DNA from: Verrucomicrobiota bacterium
GTDB lineage: Bacteria > Verrucomicrobiota > Verrucomicrobiia > Limisphaerales > UBA11358
Length of the DNA stretch: 52,796 bases
Assembly (NCBI GenBank): GCA_028873125.1
Contig: JAGWMQ010000010.1
Coordinates: 1-52,796, forward strand
Direction of reading: 5' to 3'
Below are positions 1,417 to 42,794 of this stretch, one piece after another; the first letter of the stretch is position 1, and the number at the start of each line of letters is the position of its first letter. Made by a program: the position numbers and the translations under genes. The notes beneath the pieces were generated by a model. The model did not search any database and was not told the origin of the DNA. It saw only the letters and a program-made list of their open reading frames with translations.

Positions 1417-3243
1417 TCAGGCGCACTCTGCCAAAGCCGTTGTCGCCTGCGGCACGCGCCCGGGCCGGGTTTGAAACTCGGGCTTCAGTTCCACCAAATA
1501 ATCCCCCAGAATCAGGGCGTCCAGGCGGGCATTTCTGAACGTGTTGACCGCCTCCCGGGGCGTGCAAACAATCGGCTCGCCTTTGACATTGAACGAAGTG
1601 TTAAGGACGAGGGGCAGGCCGGTGACACGTTCAAACGCCTTCAACAGTTTCCACAGCCGGGGGTTGTCCCGCTCCGAGACCGTTTGCACCCGGGCCGAGC
1701 CATCCACGTGCGTGACCGCCGGGAGGGCCTTCCGGTAAGCGGGAAGAACCTGCGTCACGTAAAGCATGTGCGCAAAAGCGTCCTCGTCGCCTGGAGCGAT
1801 GTCGAAATACCGTCTCGCCGCCTCGCTCGTGACGACCGGGGCAAACGGACGAAAACCTTCCCTTTTTTTCACCAGACTGTTGACGCGGTCTCTCATGCCG
1901 GGGTCGCGCGGGTCCGCCAGAATGCTCCGGCTGCCCAGCGCCCGCGGCCCAAACTCCATGCGGCCCTGGAACCAGGCGACGATTTCTCCGGCGGCAAGGC
2001 GCTCCGCGACTTGCCGGCACAATTCGTCGAACGAATCGGCCTTGGACCAGACACAATCCGTCTGCTCGTCGAGGACCGTTTTGATTTCGCTCTCCCCAAA
2101 TTCCGGCCCCCACAGCGGCACCGCCATTTTCCGGGGTTTGAAACCCGGATACTGCAGCCTCTGCGCGTAAAGCGCCGCTCCCAGGGCGCATCCGTCGTCT
2201 CCCGCCGCCGGTTGAACAAACATGCGCTCAAACAAGCGACTCCTCCGGAGGACGCCGTTGACGGAGCAATTCAGGGCGACTCCGCCGGCCAGGCAGAGGC
2301 GGCTCTGGCCGGTTTCGCGTTTGAAATGCCGCACGACATGCAGTTGGCACGTCTGCAGCACCGCCTGCAGGGCCGCGGCAATATCCTTGTGGTCCTGGGT
2401 GATTTCGTCCTCCGGCTCGCGCGGCGGACCGAAGCGCTCCGACAACAGCCGCAGGATCCCCGCGTGCGTTTCTCTTTCCAGCGGTGTTTTGTCGCCGGCA
2501 AAGGCGGGAATTGTGTAGGTGCCGTCGTTTTTTAAATTGACCAACTCCATCACCTTGTCGAAGTGGCGTCGCGGATTGCCATACGGCGCCAGCCCCATCA
2601 CCTTGTATTCGTCCATGTTCATGTAGAAACCCAGATGGAGCGTGAAAACGCCGTATAAAATTCCCAGGGAATGGAACGCAGGCGCCTGCTTCAAGATTTT
2701 GATCTCCGTCCCCTGCCCCAGCGCCACCATCATGCTGTGGACTTCGCCCATGCCATCACTCACCAGGATCAGCGAATCCTCAAAGCCGCTGAGGTAGAAC
2801 GCGCTGGCCGCATGCGCCAGGTGGTGCGGCACGGCAATGAACTTTCGCTCCCAGTCCACGCCCGGAAAATAACGGGCCAGGTGCCCCTTTTGAACTTCCG
2901 GCGAATACAGATCCTCATATTGCTTCCGTGCATACTCCGGCTCCTGGAAGGCGAATTGGAAGGGTTCATAGGCGAATCCATGAGCCAGGAAATCCACCTC
3001 GTTGATTTTGATGTTCCCGGCCCGCAGGCAATATTGAATGGCCCGTACGGGAAAATCGCCCGTGGCCTTCTCGCGGGTGAACCGTTCCTCGGCCGCGGCC
3101 GCGACCACCCCGCCGGCATCCACCAGCGCGGCGGCGGAGTCGAAGCCCTGGTTGATCCGGTATTGGCGCCTGGACAATCCCGGGAATTCCCGGGTCTTGA
3201 ACGCGACGTTCTGATGCACGCCGCTGATTCCGATGATCTTCAT
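1417..3243 (-). CDS. NodU/CmcH-family O-carbamoyltransferase
   Basis: 608 residues, the usual size for this family, which moves a carbamoyl group from carbamoyl phosphate, through a carbamoyl-adenylate, to a hydroxyl of a sugar or natural product. The N-terminal Kae1/YrdC-like kinase-fold part contains the metal-binding HHLAHAAS at residues 140-147, then SDGMGE and YKVMGLAPYG. The C-terminal half has QGRMEFGPRALGSRSILADP and VLNTSFNVKGEPI, both hallmarks of the family. The start at 3243 is preceded by a good GGAGG. It lies 20 bases after the monooxygenase gene and before the partial NRPS. Known relatives act on Nod factors, cephamycin, novobiocin and aminoglycosides. Whether the acceptor here is the polysaccharide or the peptide product is not visible. 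Confidence 0.93.
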   Translation of the reverse strand: MKIIGISGVHQNVAFKTREFPGLSRRQYRINQGFDSAAALVDAGGVVAAAAEERFTREKATGDFPVRAIQYCLRAGNIKINEVDFLAHGFAYEPFQFAFQEPEYARKQYEDLYSPEVQKGHLARYFPGVDWERKFIAVPHHLAHAASAFYLSGFEDSLILVSDGMGEVHSMMVALGQGTEIKILKQAPAFHSLGILYGVFTLHLGFYMNMDEYKVMGLAPYGNPRRHFDKVMELVNLKNDGTYTIPAFAGDKTPLERETHAGILRLLSERFGPPREPEDEITQDHKDIAAALQAVLQTCQLHVVRHFKRETGQSRLCLAGGVALNCSVNGVLRRSRLFERMFVQPAAGDDGCALGAALYAQRLQYPGFKPRKMAVPLWGPEFGESEIKTVLDEQTDCVWSKADSFDELCRQVAERLAAGEIVAWFQGRMEFGPRALGSRSILADPRDPGMRDRVNSLVKKREGFRPFAPVVTSEAARRYFDIAPGDEDAFAHMLYVTQVLPAYRKALPAVTHVDGSARVQTVSERDNPRLWKLLKAFERVTGLPLVLNTSFNVKGEPIVCTPREAVNTFRNARLDALILGDYLVELKPEFQTRPGRVPQATTALAECA

Positions 3244-3263
3244 TTGAACCTCCGGATGTGATT

Positions 3264-4583
3264 TTATGGTTGGAAACGAAAAGACCGAGGTTTCGGCCCG
3301 GAAAACATCGTTTTGATTAGTTGCGTGTTAGTGGGATACGGGAAGCGGTTCCGGCGCGGCAAAACCGCCGGACCGCCTGGTTGAATCTCGACTGGAAAAT
3401 CATCCGCAGATCGTCTCCCCTCCTGGCCGGCGACCGCATGGTCATTTGCCTGTTCGCGGACCCGGTTCAAAAACGGCAGGCTCGCCATGACCTGCTCCGT
3501 GGGGACACCAAAATCCAGCAGACAGGCGATCTCGTCCACCCCGGCCCGCTTGCAGCGTTCGGCCATGCGCAGGCAGGTGGCAGGCGTTCCGAAAAGCCCG
3601 CTGGTCTCGAAGTAACGTTCAAAGGCAAAATCGAGCATCGCCTCGATCTCCTCCTCCGGCAGACGGTCCAAGTCCATGTTCTGCGGCGTCTCACAAGCGC
3701 CACCGGACGACTTGTCCGCCGGAGACAACCCGGCGAAGCCGAGCAGCAGTTTCAGCGAACTGCGCAGGTAGGCCTTCAACGGCTGGCGGACCAGATCACA
3801 CACTCCGTCGTCCTCCCCGCCCACGAAGGTGTGCAACATCAGCGTCACCCGTCCGGTGGCCGGGTCATGACCGGCCGCTTTCCGCGCCTGGCGATAGACG
3901 GCGATCTTTTGGGTCACGTCGTCGAGCGTTTGACCGAGCAGATGGGTGAGCACGTTGGCGCCCAGCTCTCCGGCCTGGCGATAGGTGTCGGGATTTCCCG
4001 CCGTGGTCACCCAGAAGGGCAGCTCGGGTTGCACCGGCCGCGGCAGGGTCTGGATGGCGACCTCCTGTCCGAACGGATTGCGGAAGGCGAGCTTTTCGCC
4101 CCGCCAGAGGCGCCGGACTTGGTCAATTTGCTCCAACATCACGCGCTTCTTGTCCGCGTGGTTCTCCGGACGCAGGAGAAAGTCATTGGGCTGCCAGCCG
4201 GACGCGAAGGCGATGGCCACCCGGCCGTTGCTCAGGTTGTCCACAACGGCCCAATCCTCGGCGATGCGGATCGGGTGATGCAAGGGCGAGACGCAACTGC
4301 CGGCGCGAATGCCCAGACGCCCGGTGACCGCCGCCAAGGCGGCGCCCGTCACGCACGGATTCGGATAGGGGCTGCCGAAGGCGTGGAAGTGCCGTTCCGG
4401 GGTCCACACGGCCTCAAAGCCGTTCCAATCAAAATACTTCGCCCCTTCCAGCATCAGGCGATACTTGTCGCGGCCGGGCGCGTCGTCGTTGCCCCACAAG
4501 AACAGGCTGAAGCCGAGCGGCCGGCGTTCTATCTCCCCGTCCGGAAAACAACCAACAGACACGGCGTCCTTCATTGTCATCAT
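3264..4583 (-). CDS. NRPS-associated luciferase-like (LLM) flavin monooxygenase
   Basis: About 439 residues. The start at 4583 is chosen because a perfect AAGGAGG lies just upstream; the ATG at 4580 is an alternative. The fold is the bacterial luciferase TIM barrel: GFSLFLWGNDDA near the N terminus, YFDWNGFEAVWTPERHFH, the conserved ASGWQPNDF, PFWVTTAGNPDTYRQAGE and GANVLTHLLGQ. These match the natural-product LLM subfamily (MupA/Atu3671-like), normally found beside or fused to NRPS and PKS modules, where it hydroxylates or otherwise oxidises a carrier-bound intermediate using reduced FMN. It sits 34 bases after the C-A-T NRPS. The last 45 or so residues are arginine- and proline-rich and lie outside the fold, suggesting a C-terminal extension into spacer DNA. 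Confidence 0.9.
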   Translation of the reverse strand: MMTMKDAVSVGCFPDGEIERRPLGFSLFLWGNDDAPGRDKYRLMLEGAKYFDWNGFEAVWTPERHFHAFGSPYPNPCVTGAALAAVTGRLGIRAGSCVSPLHHPIRIAEDWAVVDNLSNGRVAIAFASGWQPNDFLLRPENHADKKRVMLEQIDQVRRLWRGEKLAFRNPFGQEVAIQTLPRPVQPELPFWVTTAGNPDTYRQAGELGANVLTHLLGQTLDDVTQKIAVYRQARKAAGHDPATGRVTLMLHTFVGGEDDGVCDLVRQPLKAYLRSSLKLLLGFAGLSPADKSSGGACETPQNMDLDRLPEEEIEAMLDFAFERYFETSGLFGTPATCLRMAERCKRAGVDEIACLLDFGVPTEQVMASLPFLNRVREQANDHAVAGQEGRRSADDFPVEIQPGGPAVLPRRNRFPYPTNTQLIKTMFSGPKPRSFRFQP

Positions 4584-4617
4584 CACTGCCTCCTTGATTT
4601 CCCGGTTGCGTTGGCCG

Positions 4618-7600
4618 TCACAACTCGATTTCTTCCCGACCGCCGGCGGCGCGGCCCGACGACTTCGATTTTTGCACCCAGGCCAATTCCGCCACTGCCT
4701 CCGCCAGCCGGGCGGGCGTCGGGCGCTCGAAAAGCAGGCGCATCGGCAGGTCGGAGCCGGTCGCGGCCCGAAGCTGGAGCATGAGTCGGGCGGCCATAAG
4801 GGAGTGGCCGCCAAGGTCGAAAAAACTGTCGCCCGCGCCAAAATCCGACCGGCCCAACACGCTGCGAAACACATTGATGACCATTTCTTCCGTCGGAGTT
4901 CGCGGCACCCCGGCAATCGGCCGCGGTGCTCCGTCAATCTGGTCCGGCGCCGGCAGCGCCTGGCGATCGAGTTTTCCGTTGGGAGTTCGCGGCAGGGCCT
5001 CCAGCCGGACAAAGCAGGCGGGGACCATGTACTCAGGCAGTGCGGCGCGCAGGAGCGCGCGCAACTCTTCGGTCACGCCGGCGGGAGGATTTTCAGCGGC
5101 AAAATAGGCCACCAAGTTCCGGTCTCCCGGCCGCGCTTCGCGCGCGATGACCACAACTTCGCGAACCGCCGGGTGTCGCGCGATGACGGCTTCGATTTCC
5201 CCGGGTTCAATCCGAAAACCGCGGAGTTTGATTTGGCCGTCCAATCGGCCGAGGTGTTCGAGCGTGCCGTCGCCGCGCCAGCGGGCACGATCGCCGGTGC
5301 GATAAAGCCGGACGCCGGGAATCGCGCCAAATGGGTCCGGGATAAACCGCTCTGCCGTCAACCCGGGCCGGTTCCAATAGCCCCGACCGACGCCGTCGCC
5401 GCCGACGCACAGCTCGCCGGGCACGCCGACCGGGCACAAATTCTTTCGCGCATCCAGAATCCGAACGGTGGTGTTGGCGATCGGCCCGCCGATGGAAATT
5501 CCGTTCGAGGTGTCGGTAATGCGGGCGCACGTGGACCAGACCGTGGTTTCGGTGGGGCCGTACATGTTCCACAACTCGACGCCGCGCGCGATCAACTGAT
5601 CGGCCAGCGCTTTGGGCAATGCTTCGCCGCCGACCACGGCTTTAAACCGGAGTTTCGGGGTCCAGCCTGTCTCCAACAACAGTTGCCAAGTGACGGGCGT
5701 GGCCTGCATGACAGTGGCATGATGCTGTTCGAGGAGCGCGGCGAGGGCCTGGCCGTCCATGGCCTGCTCGCGGGTCGCAAGGACCACCCTGGCCCCCGTC
5801 GTGAGCGGGAGCAGCAGTTCGAGCACGGCGATGTCAAAGGACAACGTGGTGACCGCCAGCAGCGTGTCATCGGCGGTCAACCCCGGCTCGCGCGCCATGC
5901 TGGTCAGAAAGTTGACCACCGCGCGGTGCGGAATGACGACGCCCTTGGGTTTGCCGGTGGAACCGGAGGTGTAGATGACATATGCCGTGTCATCGGGCCT
6001 CGCGCCCAGGTTGTCCGCCGGCGGTCCTCCGTCTGGAGCGGAAGCGATGGCCCCGGCATCGGCATCAAGCAGCACTTGGCGCTCGCGGGGCAGGCCGAAG
6101 CAACCCGCCAACCTCGCAGTGGAAACCACCAGGGCCAGTTGAGCGTCGTCGGCCATGAAGCGCAGACGGTCCTGCGGGAATGAAGGATCGAGCGGCACGT
6201 AAGCGGCGCCGCTTTTGAGGATGCCCAACAAACCCACGATCATTTCCAACGAGCGATCGACACAAATACCCACGCGCGTTCCGCGCCCCGCGCCCCGCCC
6301 GCGCAAATGATGGGCAACTTGATTGGAGCGGCGATCCAATTCACCGTAGCGAAGGCGCCGGCCTTCAAAACTGACGGCGATTGTCTCCGGCGTCCGCCCC
6401 GCCTGCGCCTCCAGCAAGTCGTGAATCCGCATGTCGCGAGGGTAATCGGCCTTGGTCCGGTTCCACTCCACCAACAATTGCCGACGCTCCGCCTCGGTGA
6501 GCATCGGCAATGCCGACACGTGACATTCGGGGGAAACGACCATGGCTTCCAGCAGCGAGCGCCAATGCGCCGCCATGCGCGCGATGGTTGAAGCGTCAAA
6601 CAGATCGGTGGCGTACTCGAAAATCGCGCGCAGCCCGTCGGCCGTCTCCTGCGTCCGCAGCATGAGGTCAACTCGCGCCACGCCGGGGTCAAGTTCCAGC
6701 GGCCGTTGCGTGAGTCCCGGCAGGTCCAGCGGCCGCAGCGGCATGTTCTCCAGCGCGAACATGACCTGGACCACGGGGTTGCGGCTGAGATCGCGCTCGG
6801 GCCGCATCTCCTCCACCAGCCGTTCAAAGGGCAGGTCCTGGTGCTCAAGGGCCTCCAGACACGTCTGGCGCACCCGGCGAAGAAATCCGCGGACCGTGGG
6901 ATCGCCGGACAGATCGGCGCGCAGCACCAACATGTTGACGAAGCAGCCCACGACCCCCTCGAATTCCGGGCGATTGCGATTGGCGACGGGCGTCCCGACC
7001 AGCAGGTCTTCCTGACCGCTGTAGCGCGAAAGCAGCATTGTGAACCCGGCCAGCAACGGCATGAACAGCGTCGCCTTCTCACCCAGCGCAAACCGGCGCA
7101 GTGCCTCGACCAGTTGCGGAGGCAGCGTGACCGAATAAACCGCCCCCCGGCTGCTCTCCACGGGGGGTCGCGCCCGGTCCGCGGGCAATTCGAGAACCTG
7201 CGGCGCTCCGGCCAGACCCGAGCGCCAGTGCCGGAGCAACTTCTCCAGCGCCTCGCCTTGCAGCCGCCGGCGTTGCCACTGTGCGAAGTCGCGATACTGG
7301 AGGCGGACCGGAGGCAAGGCCGGTGTTTCGCCCCGGGCGAGGCGCGCATACAGTTCGCCCAGTTCCCGGAACAAGATGCCCAGGGACCACCCGTCCGAAA
7401 TGATGTGGTGCATCGTCAGCAGCAGCACATGACGGTCGGCCGCCAGCCGGTAGAGTCGGCCCCGAAACAGCGGCCCGCGCGACAAGTCAAAGCCGCGCGA
7501 GATTTCCTCCCTCAGCAACTGCTCCAGTCGTCCGCGCCCCCTCGCTTCGCCGCTCAATTCCGTCAACGGCAACGTCCAGGCGCCCGGCGCAGACACCTGC

Positions 7601-7923
7601 TGCCGCGGTTGTCCCTCCTCCACGACAAACACCGTGCGCAACGACTCGTGCCGGCTGACGAGGGAGCCCAAGGCGCGCTCCAGCATCGGCAAGTTCAACA
7701 CTCCGCGCAGCTCAATCGCCATGGGAATGCTGTATGTCGTCCCGCCCGGCTCCATCTGATCCAGGAGCCAAAGCCGCTGCTGCGAGAAAGACAACTCCGC
7801 CCGCACGGGATCGGCGATCGTCTCCCTGGAGGGGGCTTTGAATCCGGACACCGAACGGGCGCTCCGCCGATCAGGGGGCAAAACGCTGCTCATCGTTTCA
7901 GAAGAATTTGGGAAGGCGTTCAT
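4618..7923 (-). CDS. Non-ribosomal peptide synthetase, single C-A-T module
   Basis: 1101 residues. The condensation domain (about 42-470) has the intact catalytic motif HHIISDG at 172-178 and the late RYSGQEDLLVGTPVANR. The adenylation domain (about 480-1000) has SGAAYVPLDPSFPQ, YVIYTSGSTGKPKGV, NMYGPTETTVWS, YRTGDRARW, GRLDGQIKLRGFR and the A10 lysine motif RTPNGKLDRQ. The carrier domain has LGGHSL with the phosphopantetheine serine at about 1041. Reading the ten specificity positions by eye gives D-I-L-Q-V-G-M-V-W-K, which resembles glycine codes; this is inference. No thioesterase or epimerase domain follows. The gene ends 34 bases before the monooxygenase. As a C domain comes first it needs an upstream donor, which may be the second NRPS or a carrier-bound acyl group. 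Confidence 0.95.
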   Translation of the reverse strand: MNAFPNSSETMSSVLPPDRRSARSVSGFKAPSRETIADPVRAELSFSQQRLWLLDQMEPGGTTYSIPMAIELRGVLNLPMLERALGSLVSRHESLRTVFVVEEGQPRQQVSAPGAWTLPLTELSGEARGRGRLEQLLREEISRGFDLSRGPLFRGRLYRLAADRHVLLLTMHHIISDGWSLGILFRELGELYARLARGETPALPPVRLQYRDFAQWQRRRLQGEALEKLLRHWRSGLAGAPQVLELPADRARPPVESSRGAVYSVTLPPQLVEALRRFALGEKATLFMPLLAGFTMLLSRYSGQEDLLVGTPVANRNRPEFEGVVGCFVNMLVLRADLSGDPTVRGFLRRVRQTCLEALEHQDLPFERLVEEMRPERDLSRNPVVQVMFALENMPLRPLDLPGLTQRPLELDPGVARVDLMLRTQETADGLRAIFEYATDLFDASTIARMAAHWRSLLEAMVVSPECHVSALPMLTEAERRQLLVEWNRTKADYPRDMRIHDLLEAQAGRTPETIAVSFEGRRLRYGELDRRSNQVAHHLRGRGAGRGTRVGICVDRSLEMIVGLLGILKSGAAYVPLDPSFPQDRLRFMADDAQLALVVSTARLAGCFGLPRERQVLLDADAGAIASAPDGGPPADNLGARPDDTAYVIYTSGSTGKPKGVVIPHRAVVNFLTSMAREPGLTADDTLLAVTTLSFDIAVLELLLPLTTGARVVLATREQAMDGQALAALLEQHHATVMQATPVTWQLLLETGWTPKLRFKAVVGGEALPKALADQLIARGVELWNMYGPTETTVWSTCARITDTSNGISIGGPIANTTVRILDARKNLCPVGVPGELCVGGDGVGRGYWNRPGLTAERFIPDPFGAIPGVRLYRTGDRARWRGDGTLEHLGRLDGQIKLRGFRIEPGEIEAVIARHPAVREVVVIAREARPGDRNLVAYFAAENPPAGVTEELRALLRAALPEYMVPACFVRLEALPRTPNGKLDRQALPAPDQIDGAPRPIAGVPRTPTEEMVINVFRSVLGRSDFGAGDSFFDLGGHSLMAARLMLQLRAATGSDLPMRLLFERPTPARLAEAVAELAWVQKSKSSGRAAGGREEIEL

Positions 7924-36312: not shown

Positions 36313-37148
36313 TTAGGAACCAACCGCGGTTGACTGGCTGCTTCGGCCAAGGATTGTTCTTGGGTTGGCTTGGCATCCCTTATTTGCCGTTCCAGTTCTT
36401 CCTGGAGTAATTCGAGCGGCTCGCCATCCACACAAGGCCACGCCGCCAGCGTTGCCGGGCGGTGCTCCAGAAATGAGGGAGTTTCTCGATTGACTGTTCA
36501 CCAGATAAATTCCGATCCCGAACGGTTGGGCGTTGCCGCCACCCAAGACCTGGCAATCGGTCACCAAGCCGCCGTCGCTGCAATAGACCGCCGACCCCGA
36601 CCCGTTGCCAAAGCGGTGATAATTGGCAACCACGGAGTTGCTAAGAACCCCACTCACCATGTAAACCGCGGTTCCTGTCCAGCCGATGAGAAAATTGGGG
36701 AAGATACAGTTTTGGACGGTTCCCCCCACGAGAGAAATGCCCGTCGGTTCCCACGGATAAGTATAGTCTGGCTGCACGGTGAATCCGTCCACCACGGCGG
36801 CCGAATTGGAAACCGAAAGGCCCCGATCGAGGAACAATTCCAAGTTCAGGATCGTCTGACCCGCCCCCATCGCGCTCCGTAAGGTGATGGCCTTGGTGAT
36901 GGTAACTCGGTTGGTCAGGTCATATTGCCCCGGTTCAACCAAAACCGTGTCGCCGTCGTTCGCGCCATCTACTGCGGGTTGGATGAATGTGCCGCGGTAT
37001 CCGTCGTGGCGTAAGGCGGCGTCGGGTTGGTGCTGGTTTGCGACACATACAACGTGGCGGCTGAAGTTGGACTGAATGAAGCGCCCGCTCCGAGCATCCC
37101 CAGCACCACTCCCGAAATAACCAGTGTCCAATAATAACTCTTTTTCAT
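36313..37148 (-). pseudogene. Broken right-handed beta-helix surface protein (tandem duplicate of 37380-39104)
   Basis: A good start (AAGGAG, then ATG at 37148) opens a protein MKKSYYWTLVISGVVLGMLG with a signal peptide and YVSQTSTNPTPPYA. Around 36985-36990 the frame shifts: one frame ends at HSSNPQ, while the other continues with DGANDGDTVLVEPGQYDLTN and a run of beta-helix repeats. These align block by block with the intact neighbour (for example SVSNSAAVVDGFTVQ, SLVGGTVQNC). Homology stops near 36430 at GGVALCG and the frame ends at 36313 in unrelated sequence. The other frame there carries a LELLQEELERQIRDA stretch. The gene is therefore frameshifted and truncated. Confidence 0.85.
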
Positions 37149-37379
37149 AACCTGTCTCCTTTTTTGTTGAGTTTTGTTGGTTCCAGCGGCCTGAGCCGCC
37201 CTCTTCTGCGGTCGTTTCAACCGTCATTGAATCGGCGGCCGAACTCCGTTGCAAACCGCAGGTCAAGCGTGGAGCATACGCTTGCTTTGATTGGACACCA
37301 GTGGGCGTTCTTCTACTTTGCGCGGATAAATCTTCTACCTCATGCGGACAAAGTTTGTAGGACATCAAAATCACTTTCG

Positions 37380-39104
37380 TCACTGCGCCACCACCCGGTA
37401 GAAACAACTGGAGATGGACAGGTTTTGGTTGGTGACATTCAGCATCGTCCCGTCGCCGGAAAAATTGGTCAGCGCCTGCCAGCGGGCGGGCGCCAGCGAA
37501 TAGGTGTATTGGATGCTGTAGGCGTGATTCCTTTGCGCGAGGAAGGAAAAGGCAAAACCATCGGCCCTCCACCGCGGACCCAGAATGGCCACCGACTGCG
37601 CCGCCGACTGCGTCTGGCTGCTCTGGCTTTCGTATGCGCCCAGGTCAACTGTGTCATTGAGCGTCCTCGGGTTCCCGTCGAGGTCCGCGGCGCCGGCCAT
37701 CCAGGGCTGGACCACTCCGGCGGCCAGGCCGACAAATTGCGGATCCTGGGTGATGTTACCCACTCCGCCCGGATCCGGCGTGGTGCAACAATGGTCAAAG
37801 ATTCCCGGCCCGGCGTTGAACCATTCGTCCTCGGCATTGCTGCAGCCGGTGTCGTAGTTGGAATAGAGGATGCAATTGGTAATGCCGCCGCTTTGAACAT
37901 AGATTCCCGCGCCAAACGCCGGGCCGCAGTCCTGGGCACTGTTCCCGGTGATGGTGCAATTTACCAGCGCCCCGCCGGCCATATACACGCCGCCTCCGTA
38001 GGTGGCGATGGGTTCCGGCACACCCTCGCTGCAGGCGTTGGACACGATCAATGAGTCGCGAACAATACTGTTCGTCTCGAAAATCCCGCCGCCGCCGTCG
38101 CCGCTCACGTCGGTGGCGCAATTGTTGTAAGCGACCAAACAGCGGTCCATCAAGCAGGAGTCCAGGTAAGCTCCGGCTCCTGAAAGCTCATTAATATGAT
38201 GAGTGATGCTGCATCCCTCGATGATGCTGTTGGAAGCATAGAGCGCCGGGCCGTCCGACATTTCGCGGGCGCCGCGAATGCCCACGATGGCGGAATTTGT
38301 CAATTGACTGTCCACCAGATAAACCCCCGTGGCATGAGAGCCGCCCACCGTGGCCGAACCCAGGATTTGGCAGCCGGTGATGAGGCCGCCGCCACTGCAA
38401 TAGACACCTGATCCTGAATCAAAACGGTTGTAAGTCACCATTGAATTGCTGAGAATCCCGCCGGTCATGCAGACCGAGGCGCCTTGGCGGATTAACCAGA
38501 AATTGGTGAAGGCGCAATTTTGGACGGTTCCTCCAACAAGGAAAACGCCGGCCGCATCGGATCCAGATGCCGGCCCCTGCATCGTAAAGCCGTCAATCAC
38601 GGCGGCGGAGTTGGAGACCCAAAGGCCATAGTCGCCCAACGCCACGTTCAGGAACGTCTGGCTGGCTCCCATCGAACTCCGCAGAACGATGGCGTTGGTG
38701 ATGGCGACTTGATTGGTCAAATCATACTGACCCGGCGCAACCAGAACCGTGTCGCCGCTGTTGGCGACCTCCACCGCGTCCTGAATGTCGTGCGCCGCGG
38801 TGTCCCACGCCGCATAAGGCGGCGAAGGGCTGGCGCTGGTTCGCGAAACATAGACCGTGGCGGCCGAGGCCGGGCTGACTGGGGCAACCGCTCCGATCAT
38901 CCCCAGCGCCACTCCCGAGATAACCCGTGTCCAATAACTCCTTTTCTTAACTTGTTTCCATTTTGTGAAGTCTATCGGTTCAAGCGGCGTGAGGCGCCAC
39001 CTTCTGCGGTCATTTCGGCTGCCATTGAATTGAATTAGCAGTCGAACTCCTTTGCAAACTGCAGATTGAGGGCGTAGCATACGCTTGTTGATATTGGACT
39101 GCAA
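37380..39104 (-). CDS. Right-handed parallel beta-helix secreted protein with degenerate start
   Basis: The open frame is 574 residues from an ATG at 39104, but homology and signal peptide begin later. The segment VKKRSYWTRVISGVALGMIG corresponds to the start of the neighbouring copy, and here the equivalent of its ATG is AAG at 38946-38948, and the Shine-Dalgarno AAGGAG is replaced by atggaa. Downstream are about ten beta-helix coils (SNSAAVIDGFTMQ, CMTGGILSNSMVTYN and so on), a LNDTVDLGAYESQS segment, and a C-terminal YSIQYTYSLAP/FYRVVAQ tail typical of secreted Verrucomicrobia proteins. It may start far upstream (39104 or 39080) with an internal signal anchor, or be poorly expressed. Confidence 0.75.
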   Translation of the reverse strand: MQSNINKRMLRPQSAVCKGVRLLIQFNGSRNDRRRWRLTPLEPIDFTKWKQVKKRSYWTRVISGVALGMIGAVAPVSPASAATVYVSRTSASPSPPYAAWDTAAHDIQDAVEVANSGDTVLVAPGQYDLTNQVAITNAIVLRSSMGASQTFLNVALGDYGLWVSNSAAVIDGFTMQGPASGSDAAGVFLVGGTVQNCAFTNFWLIRQGASVCMTGGILSNSMVTYNRFDSGSGVYCSGGGLITGCQILGSATVGGSHATGVYLVDSQLTNSAIVGIRGAREMSDGPALYASNSIIEGCSITHHINELSGAGAYLDSCLMDRCLVAYNNCATDVSGDGGGGIFETNSIVRDSLIVSNACSEGVPEPIATYGGGVYMAGGALVNCTITGNSAQDCGPAFGAGIYVQSGGITNCILYSNYDTGCSNAEDEWFNAGPGIFDHCCTTPDPGGVGNITQDPQFVGLAAGVVQPWMAGAADLDGNPRTLNDTVDLGAYESQSSQTQSAAQSVAILGPRWRADGFAFSFLAQRNHAYSIQYTYSLAPARWQALTNFSGDGTMLNVTNQNLSISSCFYRVVAQ

Positions 39105-39442: not shown

Positions 39443-39547
39443 GAGCAAGGTTGCTCGACGTCTGATCAAATTTGATTGGCGTAAGAGCAAGGTTGCTGAA
39501 CGTCCGATCAAGGTTGATTGACGTGTGATCAAGGTTGATCCCACGCC
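39443..39547. repeat. Five tandem 21-bp units with self-complementary cores
   Basis: Five units of exactly 21 bases start at 39443, 39464, 39485, 39506 and 39527. Each begins with a 14-base dyad: GAGCAAGGTTGCTC, GATCAAATTTGATT, GAGCAAGGTTGCTG, GATCAAGGTTGATT and GATCAAGGTTGATC. The arm change GAG to GAT is matched by CTC to ATC in the opposite arm. Two helical turns between units would place all dyads on one face of the DNA. Spacer bases are less conserved. It is 339 bases upstream of the beta-helix frame and 246 bases after the kinase stop. Confidence 0.85.
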
Positions 39548-39662: not shown

Positions 39663-39786
39663 AACTCCGCGTCGTCCGTAGCGCGGGCGTCCTCGCCTGC
39701 GGGTTCACCCGGCGTCCCGCCGGGTGTCGGGGCTTGGCGGCGAGACGCCGCCACAACCCGCAGCCGGGACGACTGCGCTACGCGGG
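39663..39786. repeat. About 124-bp MITE-like element, copy B
   Basis: Same sequence order as copy A at 32100-32222. CGTAGCGC at 39677-39684 and GCGCTACG at 39775-39782 are perfect inverted ends, and GGCGTCCTCGCC/GGCGAGACGCC pair inside. It lies just after the stop of the kinase gene. Confidence 0.8.
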
Positions 39787-39792
39787 TCATAA

Positions 39793-42114
39793 TCAATGCG
39801 ACTTACCGGAACTTGCGGTTTTGGCGCTGGCAATGGACCGCCCGGCCGTCAGCGCCCCGCCGGCCCCGTTCCGCTCCGGCTGCCAATGATAGGCGCGCGC
39901 ATATGTTTCATAATACTGGCGCTCGCAGGGCGAGGAGACGGCGCGATTGAAAATCAGGCCCAGCACATGGGCGCGCCGCCGCCGCAACGCGTCCACCGCG
40001 CCGCGCGCCACGCGGGCGGAGGTGGACAAGGCACGCACCACGAACAGCACCCCGTCCGTCTGGGGCGCCAACACCGCCGCGTCGTCCGTGGCGGCCACCG
40101 GCGGCGTGTCCACCAGGATGTAATCGAATTGCGCCTTGGCCGCCGCCAGGAGTTGCGCCCAGACCGGACTCAACACTAGGTCGCCGGGGTTGCGCCGGGC
40201 CTGGCCGGCCGGCAGCAGCGTCAGATTCTCCATCCCGGTGGAAAGAACAGCGTCCAGCAGGGAAATCTCGTCGTCGAGCACCTCGGCCAGGCCGGGAGCG
40301 GACGGCAGGCCAAAATGCCGGTGCAAGCCGGGCCGGCGCATGTCCCCGTCAATCAGCAGCACACGCGCGTTGGCCTTGGCCAGTGTGGCGGCCAGATAAC
40401 GCGCCACCGTGGATTTCCCCTCCCCCGGCACCGAGCTGGCCACCACGACCGATTTTGGACTGGAACCGCCATTGTTCAAGAAGAACAGCGAAGCGCGGAG
40501 GTTGCGGAAGGCCTCCGCGAACTCAAAGCATTGCTGTTCCAAGCCTTCAATCCCCGAGCGCGCCTTGGAGCTTTTGATCACGATGGCGGGGATCTGGCCC
40601 ACCACCGGCGCGGCAAGGTGCCCGGCCAATTCCGCCTGCGAGGCGAAGTTGTCCTGCAACAGGCCGATTCCATAGAGCAATCCGAAACACAGCGCCAGCG
40701 CCAGAAAAGTCGCGGCGGCCATGTGGATCAACATCCGGTGGGTCGGCTTGGCCGCGGACGCCGGGTCCAGAATTCCCACGTCCGCCTGCTCCACGCGTTG
40801 CGCGACGTCAATGTTTTGGATCAAGCCAAACGTCTTGTCGTAGGCGGCCTGGAGGCGCTGGACCTTTTGCCGGATCTGGTCGTAATCGGCCATTTTGCCG
40901 CTGGCCTCGACGGCCTTGGCGTCCCAGTCCTTGGACGCGGCTTCGAGATTCCGGATTTGCACGGCCAAGGCCTGGCGGCGAAGCGCCAATTGTTTGGCCG
41001 CTTCGTCCCGCGCCACCTCCACGATTTCCTGCTGGGCGGCGATCTCCTGGTCGAGCTGAATGATCTTGGGATGGGCCGGGCGCAGGTAGCGGGACAGTTC
41101 ATCGCGCTTGGCCATGAGCAGATGCATTTGTTGGTCGGCTTGGAAGAGCGCGGTTTGGGACTGTTGCACATTGGCCAGCATTTGCCGGGCGGCCGCTTCA
41201 TCGCCGGGGGCCTGGCCACCGCCGCCTCCTTGGACGCTGTCGGTTTCCACCCATTGCTCCGGCTTGAGTGAATCCAGCAGTTTCTGTTCCGTGCGCAGCG
41301 TGGCCAGTTGCCGGTTCAACGAGGCCAGATAGCTCTGGGCGCTGCTGCCCTGCTGCTGGAGAAAGACGACGTTGTTGGAGGCCTCGAAGGACTGTAACTC
41401 CGACCGGGAGGCCGCCAACTCACCCTTCAACTGCGCGGCGGCGGCGTTCAACGACGACGCGGCCTGCGCGGATGCGTGGTCGCGGGCTTCCATTTTGAAA
41501 TTCAAGTAGGCGGCCATCAGGCAATCCAGAAATTTCCGGGTGGCCACGGGGTCCGAGCCGGTGGCTTTCAAATCCAGCGTGCTGCTCTTGGAACCCTGCT
41601 CGGCGGTGACGCTGAACGGAATGGGCGGAGGCCCCTTGCCGTCGGGGGTTGAGCCGCTGGAGGCGAACAGGTCGTGCCAATGCGCCTTGGCCCTGTCGAG
41701 AAGAAGTTTCAGTTGGTTCCCGCCGCCGGCGCCGGACGTCTTTGAGGCTGGCTTGGACTCCGCCGTCAGTCGGGCCAGGGCCAGGCGTTGGATGGCCGGA
41801 CTTTGGAGCAAGGCGGCCTGCGTTCCGAGGAAATCCACCAGTTGTTCCGTGTAACCCCAGTCTTCGGAAACATTGATTTTGCCCGTCACCCACATGCGGG
41901 CCCGCGACTCATACACCGGGCCGGAGACGGCAGTGTACAGATACATCGGGCCGAGGATGGCCGGAAAAATCAACGCCGGCAGCCACCAGTATCGGCGAAG
42001 GAGAAGCCACCAGCGGTGGAACCGCCCATACAGCTTGGACGCCGACATAAACCGGTCCGCCGGGGAAAACAAATCCACGGCGCTCGTGTTCAGATGATTT
42101 TCGTTGTCGTTCAT
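39793..42114 (-). CDS. Wzc/ExoP-type polysaccharide co-polymerase and BY-kinase
   Basis: 773 residues from the ATG at 42114. An N-terminal Wzz domain has a membrane helix (ALIFPAILGPMYLYTAV), a long periplasmic coiled coil (about 230-470) and a second helix (MAAATFLALALCFGLLYGIG). The cytoplasmic kinase has Walker A SSVPGEGKST at 560-569, Walker A' LLIDGDMRRP, Walker B YILVDTPPV. The tyrosine-rich RQYYETYARAYHW lies about 30 residues before the end, so the tyrosine cluster is not at the extreme C terminus. It controls chain length and export together with the Wza-like protein encoded just upstream. The frame upstream of 42114 is a shadow of the export gene. Confidence 0.95.
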   Translation of the reverse strand: MNDNENHLNTSAVDLFSPADRFMSASKLYGRFHRWWLLLRRYWWLPALIFPAILGPMYLYTAVSGPVYESRARMWVTGKINVSEDWGYTEQLVDFLGTQAALLQSPAIQRLALARLTAESKPASKTSGAGGGNQLKLLLDRAKAHWHDLFASSGSTPDGKGPPPIPFSVTAEQGSKSSTLDLKATGSDPVATRKFLDCLMAAYLNFKMEARDHASAQAASSLNAAAAQLKGELAASRSELQSFEASNNVVFLQQQGSSAQSYLASLNRQLATLRTEQKLLDSLKPEQWVETDSVQGGGGGQAPGDEAAARQMLANVQQSQTALFQADQQMHLLMAKRDELSRYLRPAHPKIIQLDQEIAAQQEIVEVARDEAAKQLALRRQALAVQIRNLEAASKDWDAKAVEASGKMADYDQIRQKVQRLQAAYDKTFGLIQNIDVAQRVEQADVGILDPASAAKPTHRMLIHMAAATFLALALCFGLLYGIGLLQDNFASQAELAGHLAAPVVGQIPAIVIKSSKARSGIEGLEQQCFEFAEAFRNLRASLFFLNNGGSSPKSVVVASSVPGEGKSTVARYLAATLAKANARVLLIDGDMRRPGLHRHFGLPSAPGLAEVLDDEISLLDAVLSTGMENLTLLPAGQARRNPGDLVLSPVWAQLLAAAKAQFDYILVDTPPVAATDDAAVLAPQTDGVLFVVRALSTSARVARGAVDALRRRRAHVLGLIFNRAVSSPCERQYYETYARAYHWQPERNGAGGALTAGRSIASAKTASSGKSH

Positions 42115-42125
42115 CGAATTGTTCC

Positions 42126-42794
42126 TCAATAATTCACCAAACTTTGGGGCACTACGACCAGGTCGCCGGGCTGGACGGCGAGGTCTTTGTTCAGTTGCCC
42201 CTTCCAAACGTCGAGCACGTTGACCACAAAAGTTTCCTGGCCGGCGGCGGTCTTGCGGATCAAGCGCACGTGTTTTTTGTCGGAGAAGTCGCTGAACCCG
42301 CCCGCGTCCAGAATGGCCTTGCTGACGGTCATTTTCTCCCCGGCTTTGATTTCGTAACCGCCCGGTTGGCGCACCTGGCCGGTGACATAGACCTTGCCGG
42401 CCACCCAGGCCTTGTTGGCCACGGCGAGCGCGATGACCACCGTGGCTCGATAATAGAGTCTCTTTTGAAGCAGGGTCTTGATCTCTTCGGCCACTTGACG
42501 GCAGGTTTTGCCGGCGGCGTGGACCAGGCCGTAGTAAGGCACCTCCAAATCGCCGGAATCGGTGATCGTCAAGTTTGTCGGGGCGTCCTGGTCCTCGATC
42601 ACCTGATAGAGAATCTGGTCGCCCGGACCGAGCTTGTAGCGGTTGTCCAAGGCGTCCAACGGCTGGCCCGACGACGCCAGGGCGGTTTGATTCGTATCCG
42701 CAAGAACCGTAAAATTCGTGTCCGCGGCGCGAACGGGACCGCAACATTGCCAGGCGGCAAAGGCCGCCACGAGAATGAGGATTCGCTGGTTCAT
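42126..42794 (-). CDS. Wza-like polysaccharide export protein
   Basis: 222 residues from the ATG at 42794. A signal peptide (MNQRILILVAAFAAWQCCGP) precedes the mature part. The Poly_export domain has YKLGPGDQILYQV and ITDSGDLEVPYYGLV; VTGQVRQPGGYEIKAGEKM is an SLBB-type domain. It is shorter than E. coli Wza, lacks the C-terminal helix, and has no clear lipobox, although two cysteines lie near the cleavage site. It would connect the kinase/co-polymerase to the outer-membrane barrel encoded upstream (inference). Close spacing on both sides (11 bases) supports a single operon. Confidence 0.92.
   Translation of the reverse strand: MNQRILILVAAFAAWQCCGPVRAADTNFTVLADTNQTALASSGQPLDALDNRYKLGPGDQILYQVIEDQDAPTNLTITDSGDLEVPYYGLVHAAGKTCRQVAEEIKTLLQKRLYYRATVVIALAVANKAWVAGKVYVTGQVRQPGGYEIKAGEKMTVSKAILDAGGFSDFSDKKHVRLIRKTAAGQETFVVNVLDVWKGQLNKDLAVQPGDLVVVPQSLVNY

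Follow-up and report, generated by a model that had tools for sequence, protein, structure and literature searches.

A Row of Five 21-bp Palindromic Units in a Verrucomicrobial Polysaccharide Cluster and Phased Dyad Arrays of Other Sequence in the Same Genus

Described palindrome and repeat systems

Tandem operator arrays of dimeric bacterial regulators consist of short two-fold dyads with conserved half-sites and a free centre, set at whole-turn spacing. They appear to be the nearest known kind to the array of five palindromic units reported here, which lies in a 52,796-nt stretch of DNA from a Verrucomicrobiota bacterium (the window; contig JAGWMQ010000010.1) and which resembles them in its dyads, conserved half-sites, free centre and whole-turn spacing. 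The class of arrays to which we compare it below differs from such operators in that each array has its own core and some stand between convergent genes. The iterons of plasmid origins are likewise direct repeats about two turns apart, but they are usually not palindromic, whereas the array is palindromic and occupies a chromosomal-type EPS locus; no replication initiator gene was seen.

Small intergenic palindromes are also found in REP and BIME elements, in which one sequence family, carrying a tag, is dispersed through the genome mostly as head-to-head dimers, with a GTAG or CGTC tag beside a stem of 8-9 bp and a loop of 4-5 nt (PMC3733652). In contrast, the array has its core at one place only and is built of direct 21-bp repeats. 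A REP element requires many dispersed copies, and the 3.74-Mb assembly has GAKCAANNTTGMTC nowhere outside the array, not even as a single site; the random genome-wide scatter of units that the preliminary description had named as telling against its own reading is thus not what is seen. Nor is the REP layout of tag, stem and loop (PMC3733652) matched, the stem here being 5-6 bp long with ACGT or GCGT in the spacer. PARCELs are protein-coding palindromic repeats of 75 bp, or 25 codons (PMC2996958), and share with the array tandem repetition and a dyad symmetry that varies between units; they were rejected on the 21-bp period and a stop in the repeat frame. A CRISPR array, with identical palindromic repeats and unique spacers of about 30 bp, does not agree with related 7-bp spacers at a 21-bp period, and comparison of the window with Rfam at its gathering threshold gave no known structured RNA. 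In the open-licence papers searched we met no account of palindrome arrays that are helically phased and vary in sequence, though this does not prove novelty.

Anatomy and gene setting of the array

Five tandem palindromic units of 21 bp had been placed at positions 39443-39547 by the preliminary description, and both the coordinates and the spacing, which is exactly 21 bp, proved right (Table 1); at this spacing the dyads do lie on one DNA face, as it had also stated. Every unit consists of a dyad of 14 bp, its central pair free, and a spacer of 7 bp after it; all five dyads are centred on CAANNTTG with flanks GAK/MTC. The CAA..TTG core is invariant in 5/5 units together with G1, A2 and T13; four units have GG as their central pair and one has AT, and the spacer is also variable. 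Outside the central pair two dyads are perfect (6/6) and three reach 5/6, the outermost pair (1/14) being intact in units 1 and 5 only and broken in units 2, 3 and 4. In unit 5 the right flank, CCCACGCC, mirrors the spacer in front of the unit, GACGTGT, which lengthens the dyad to about 28 bp. Conservation among the units is mirror-symmetric around the dyad axis (rho 0.61, p = 0.03).

Table 1. Units of the array and flanking genes, in window coordinates
Feature	Coordinates	Strand	Details
Unit 1	39443..39463	.	GAGCAAGGTTGCTCGACGTCT; dyad GAGCAA-GG-TTGCTC, 6/6 pairs; 7-bp spacer GACGTCT
Unit 2	39464..39484	.	GATCAAATTTGATTGGCGTAA; dyad GATCAA-AT-TTGATT, 5/6; spacer GGCGTAA
Unit 3	39485..39505	.	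GAGCAAGGTTGCTGAACGTCC; dyad GAGCAA-GG-TTGCTG, 5/6; spacer AACGTCC; 42-bp repeat of units 1-2
Unit 4	39506..39526	.	GATCAAGGTTGATTGACGTGT; dyad GATCAA-GG-TTGATT, 5/6; spacer GACGTGT
Unit 5	39527..39547	.	GATCAAGGTTGATC(CCACGCC); dyad GATCAA-GG-TTGATC, 6/6
Polysaccharide-export tyrosine autokinase, Wzc/BY-kinase type	39793..42747	-	TIGR01007 3.9e-40; Pfam
Secreted beta-helix-like surface protein	37380..39104	-	574-aa ORF; signal peptide visible in translation
Second, shorter surface-protein gene copy	36313..37572	-	58% identity over 174 aa

The array is beyond chance. Its phased-dyad chain score is 34.6, whereas the best of 150 dinucleotide-shuffled windows scored 20.0, and the probability of a 6-pair dyad in a random 21-mer ring of the same composition is about 0.013. 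It had further been claimed that the arms covary, changes in one being mirrored in the other, and this held in part: position pair 3/12 does switch, from G-C in units 1 and 3 to T-A in units 2, 4 and 5 (permutation test, p = 0.033), but it is a single column pair with two states and is largely explained by a 42-bp duplication. TRF gave a period of 21 (4.8 copies) and a higher-scoring period of 42 (2.3 copies, 83% match, score 127), and since the two arm states alternate as a 42-bp duplication would have them do, the covariation may reflect a single event.

The array sits within a large minus-strand polysaccharide/NRPS-type cluster, between co-directional genes. The 3' end and stop of the kinase gene are about 245 bp away, and the first surface-protein gene, whose true start is probably below 39104, lies downstream of the array at a distance of at least 339 bp; the duplication of the surface-protein genes beside the array, noticed earlier, is real. 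No sigma-70-like promoter was found near the array, and none of the window genes tested proved to encode a regulator. Elsewhere in the window (1417-7923, minus strand), genes for a carbamoyltransferase, a luciferase-like monooxygenase and an NRPS module (C-A-PCP) adjoin polysaccharide genes, possibly as a hybrid surface-glycan/peptide cluster.

Phased dyads in related genomes

Searches by blastn and by patterns found no other copy of this particular array in its own genome or in about 80 relatives, the array itself being the only blastn match. Exact two-unit patterns had no match in GTDB genomes or viral contigs, blastn against phages and plasmids returned no match, and a pattern allowing three mismatches gave, apart from the array itself, only scattered chance matches in relatives. 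Conservation of the dyads in relatives had been raised as a question in the preliminary description, and in the genomes searched the window array has no ortholog. No syntenic array was alignable, and this absence is weak evidence either way, because the kinases of congeners are just 31-38% identical to that of the window.

The architecture does, nevertheless, recur. When GTDB contigs were searched for three CAANNTTG sites phased at 21 bp, at least 117 stretches matched, all of them selected by the pattern, and the matches listed include non-coding arrays in Verrucomicrobia, Bacteroidetes and cyanobacteria. Because the Bacteroidetes and cyanobacterial 21-bp arrays were picked by the CAA..TTG pattern, conservation of the core in them proves little, and covariation within units is absent in several of them. 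Among 320 genomes of the order, three phased CAANNTTG occurred at period 21 in nine, at period 18 in two and at periods 22 and 24 in none, and the 21-bp matches inside the window's genus include clear arrays in genomes G079, G014 and G017. The reversed pattern GTTNNAAC was present in 0 genomes of the genus and in 4 genomes elsewhere in the order.

Some of the arrays in the GTDB contigs depart from a uniform repeat. In an uncultured Verrucomicrobia contig (L103:1128-1640, CALMOL010000206.1), 24 units flanked by convergent methyltransferase and Ser/Thr kinase-TPR genes have mixed 21- and 22-bp spacing, which fits two helix turns and not codons. In Odoribacteraceae (L114:5699-6000 and L131:14-357), two palindromes, TTCCCAA..TTGGGAA and AAACAA..TTGTTT, alternate strictly every 21 bp as a 42-bp A/B repeat.

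A sequence-blind lattice-dyad scan at periods 12-44 was run on arbitrary stretches from the genus, amounting to 1.03 Mb with the window and 0.97 Mb without it; a further 0.30 Mb from the genome of the window brought the genus DNA scanned in this way to 1.27 Mb in all. The top three scores were all at period 21, namely L326 (44.3; 12 units with core CACNNGTG), the window (34.6) and L312 (30.2; 14 units), while the best at any other period was 27.2 and the maximum of the mirror-repeat control 26.1. The scan was designed after the window had been seen, so that the period-21 peak finds its evidence in the other arrays and not in the window. A period-21 array with core GTGAA.TTCAC and a score of 25.2 is present in the window's own genome (L351; G000:C125 6659-6785), and the best genus arrays share this period though their cores are unrelated. 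No period-21 arrays were found in two small samples, 0.29 Mb of DNA from the order's other families and 0.10 Mb of E. coli.

A neighbouring gene common to the arrays was searched for and none was found. Members of the class adjoin unrelated genes, some of them lying between convergent genes (L103, L118), and for this reason the kinase/EPS setting of the window array looks incidental.

Genome G017 shows how such DNA can behave. A non-coding segment of about 600 bp with a 21-bp CACATGTG array is present both on contig C49 (L400:2116-2707) and on contig C60 (L401:7641-8251); its two copies are about 99% identical in the array part, with a less similar upstream flank, and it is possibly a mobile or converted element. 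Contigs C5, C6, C19, C41 and C51 of the same genome (L397, L398, L271, L272 and L399) carry homogenised arrays at their ends, with the unit ACATCGATGTTCCCGCG and a GTCGATG variant on C19, which is probably a repeat breaking the assembly. With near-identical segments at two or more places and long homogenised stretches, such DNA evidently does spread and homogenise.

Selection on an orthologous array, and candidate explanations

One array, with the core CACNNGTG, is common to two sister species of the genus (G021 and G027) at the same place, directly 3' of the same conserved gene for a 130-aa protein (MSYIDPDQFHGALNSTITFLKDADNQ...; L326:635-1027 and L396:822-1214, both on the plus strand). In this pair, which was found using a pattern containing its own core, the nine alignable units show 0/54 differences in the CAC..GTG core, 7/18 in the central pair and 36/117 in the rest of the unit (core vs rest, p = 2.8e-7), and the number of units is unequal (about 13 vs 15). 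By codon phase the differences in the array are flat (14/16/15), so that the array is not coding and the constraint is not on a protein; those in the adjacent 130-aa gene are 24/15/9, mostly at third positions. A constraint on the hairpin alone would allow compensatory change in the stem, and since none was seen between the two species, the constraint concerns sequence and not structure only. The alignment therefore points to an array in which half-site sequence and phase are constrained while the spacer drifts. Conservation that is mirror-symmetric around the dyad axis was found at p < 0.05 in 15/17 arrays, that of the window among them, with the same sign in 17/17, partly by ascertainment, the arrays having been picked for dyads.

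The preliminary description had ascribed the repeat pattern to selection, either on a palindromic protein site or on RNA hairpins, rather than to drift. Selection on a palindromic site finds support in the G021/G027 array and extends by analogy only to the window array, which has no ortholog; RNA hairpins have become the less likely target, the core in the one array open to testing being conserved by sequence with no compensatory change.

We tentatively read the window array as a short row of operator-like sites for a dimeric DNA-binding protein on one DNA face, an explanation that we regard as plausible while stopping short of calling it probable, and that is suggested by the behaviour of the class: conserved half-site, free centre, symmetric flanks and whole-turn phase. 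The row would comprise five copies of a two-fold symmetric site with the half-site CAA, a 2-bp free centre and preferred flanks GAK/MTC. At two B-DNA turns apart, the sites would place protein dimers side by side on one face, where neighbouring dimers may bind cooperatively. The reader would presumably be a protein dimer, with a reader of its own for each array, and its binding may affect the flanking EPS/surface-protein operon as an operator, a roadblock or a local DNA organiser. Half-sites conserved by sequence together with whole-turn spacing, as in an operator array, were found in the symmetry of the window array, its exact 21-bp period and the G021/G027 array. Observed are the build of the units and their exact phase, the occurrence of the site at one place in its genome, an architecture that recurs with other cores in the genus, and purifying selection on the core of one such array. 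On the side of this reading we count the invariant core beside a variable centre and spacer, the mirror-symmetric conservation, the prominence of period 21, the unchanged core of the G021/G027 array and the mixed spacing of L103. Against it counts that selection was seen on another array of the class, none orthologous to the window array being present in the searched genomes, and that neither a regulator gene among the tested window genes, nor single sites elsewhere in the genome, nor a sigma-70-like promoter nearby was found. An operator also makes little sense for those class arrays that stand between convergent genes (L103, L118).

A broader proposal, possible though on the whole doubtful, is that the genus harbours an undescribed genome-wide class, to which the window array would belong: rows of small palindromes at exactly two helix turns, with selected row-specific cores and a conserved "format" of phase and dyad, and with a family of dimeric paralogs or a mobile-element system as possible readers. 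If this class is real, some ten or more loci per genome, by rough estimate, would keep the spacing and symmetry of the palindromes and not their sequence, evolution would have uncoupled helical phase from the recognition of sequence, and directly testable candidate operator arrays would be at hand in a phylum for which hardly any regulators are known.

The strongest rival to the operator-like row, which we nonetheless think rather unlikely, is a non-regulatory palindromic minisatellite, in which a short palindrome would have been tandemly duplicated in 42-bp steps, with hairpin-templated (quasipalindrome) mutation restoring the symmetry and slippage homogenising the units, all to no function. 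The 42-bp higher-order period would account for the alternating arm states, and a periodic sequence with one dyad axis automatically acquires a second, half a period away. The long homogenised stretches and dispersed near-identical arrays of G017 also agree with it, as do the differing sequences of the individual arrays and the lack of orthologs for most of them. What it leaves unexplained is the preference for period 21 over 18, 22 and 24 in unrelated sequences, and the unchanged core of the orthologous arrays (0/54, vs 36/117 elsewhere).

Hairpins in the operon transcript, in the kinase 3' UTR or the surface-protein leader, might instead serve as an attenuator, a stabiliser or a protein-binding RNA. 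The co-directional genes on both sides of the array would suit this, and the gene-sense strand folds at -41.2 kcal/mol (z -5.0); the other strand, however, folds at -43.8 (z -3.7), and folding on both strands is expected of any palindrome array. Given stems of 5-6 bp that lack a terminator tract, the failure to match Rfam, a 21-nt period for which RNA offers no reason, and an orthologous array whose stem is altogether unchanged and hence without covariation, we consider this improbable. Disfavoured more strongly still is an origin from protein-coding DNA, in which the array would be what is left of a heptapeptide repeat similar in kind to PARCELs and other coding palindromes; we see very little chance of this. 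Twenty-one nucleotides do make seven codons, one frame reads SKVARRL-IKFDWRK-SKVAERP-IKVD*, and across the array two frames of the minus strand stay open, but there is a stop in the best repeat frame, the longest stop-to-stop frame has 92 codons, no codon-phase signal was seen in the one class member that has an ortholog, and spacings of 21 and 22 bp occur together in the L103 array.

We would also like to mention a second kind of 21-bp element. Twin-hairpin elements, each a pair of 21-bp hairpins placed back to back, in which the stems vary, loops of the GTCCC/GTCGC type recur and the ends are often GGGAGCGC, occur at L280:16130, L293:1870, L293:2438, L316:1504 and L345:11561, and a nested relative of these dispersed elements is found at window positions 39676-39790, 130 bp from the array. 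Close hairpin pairs were 21-21.5 bp apart in 14/45 cases in the genus, vs 0/20 in other families.
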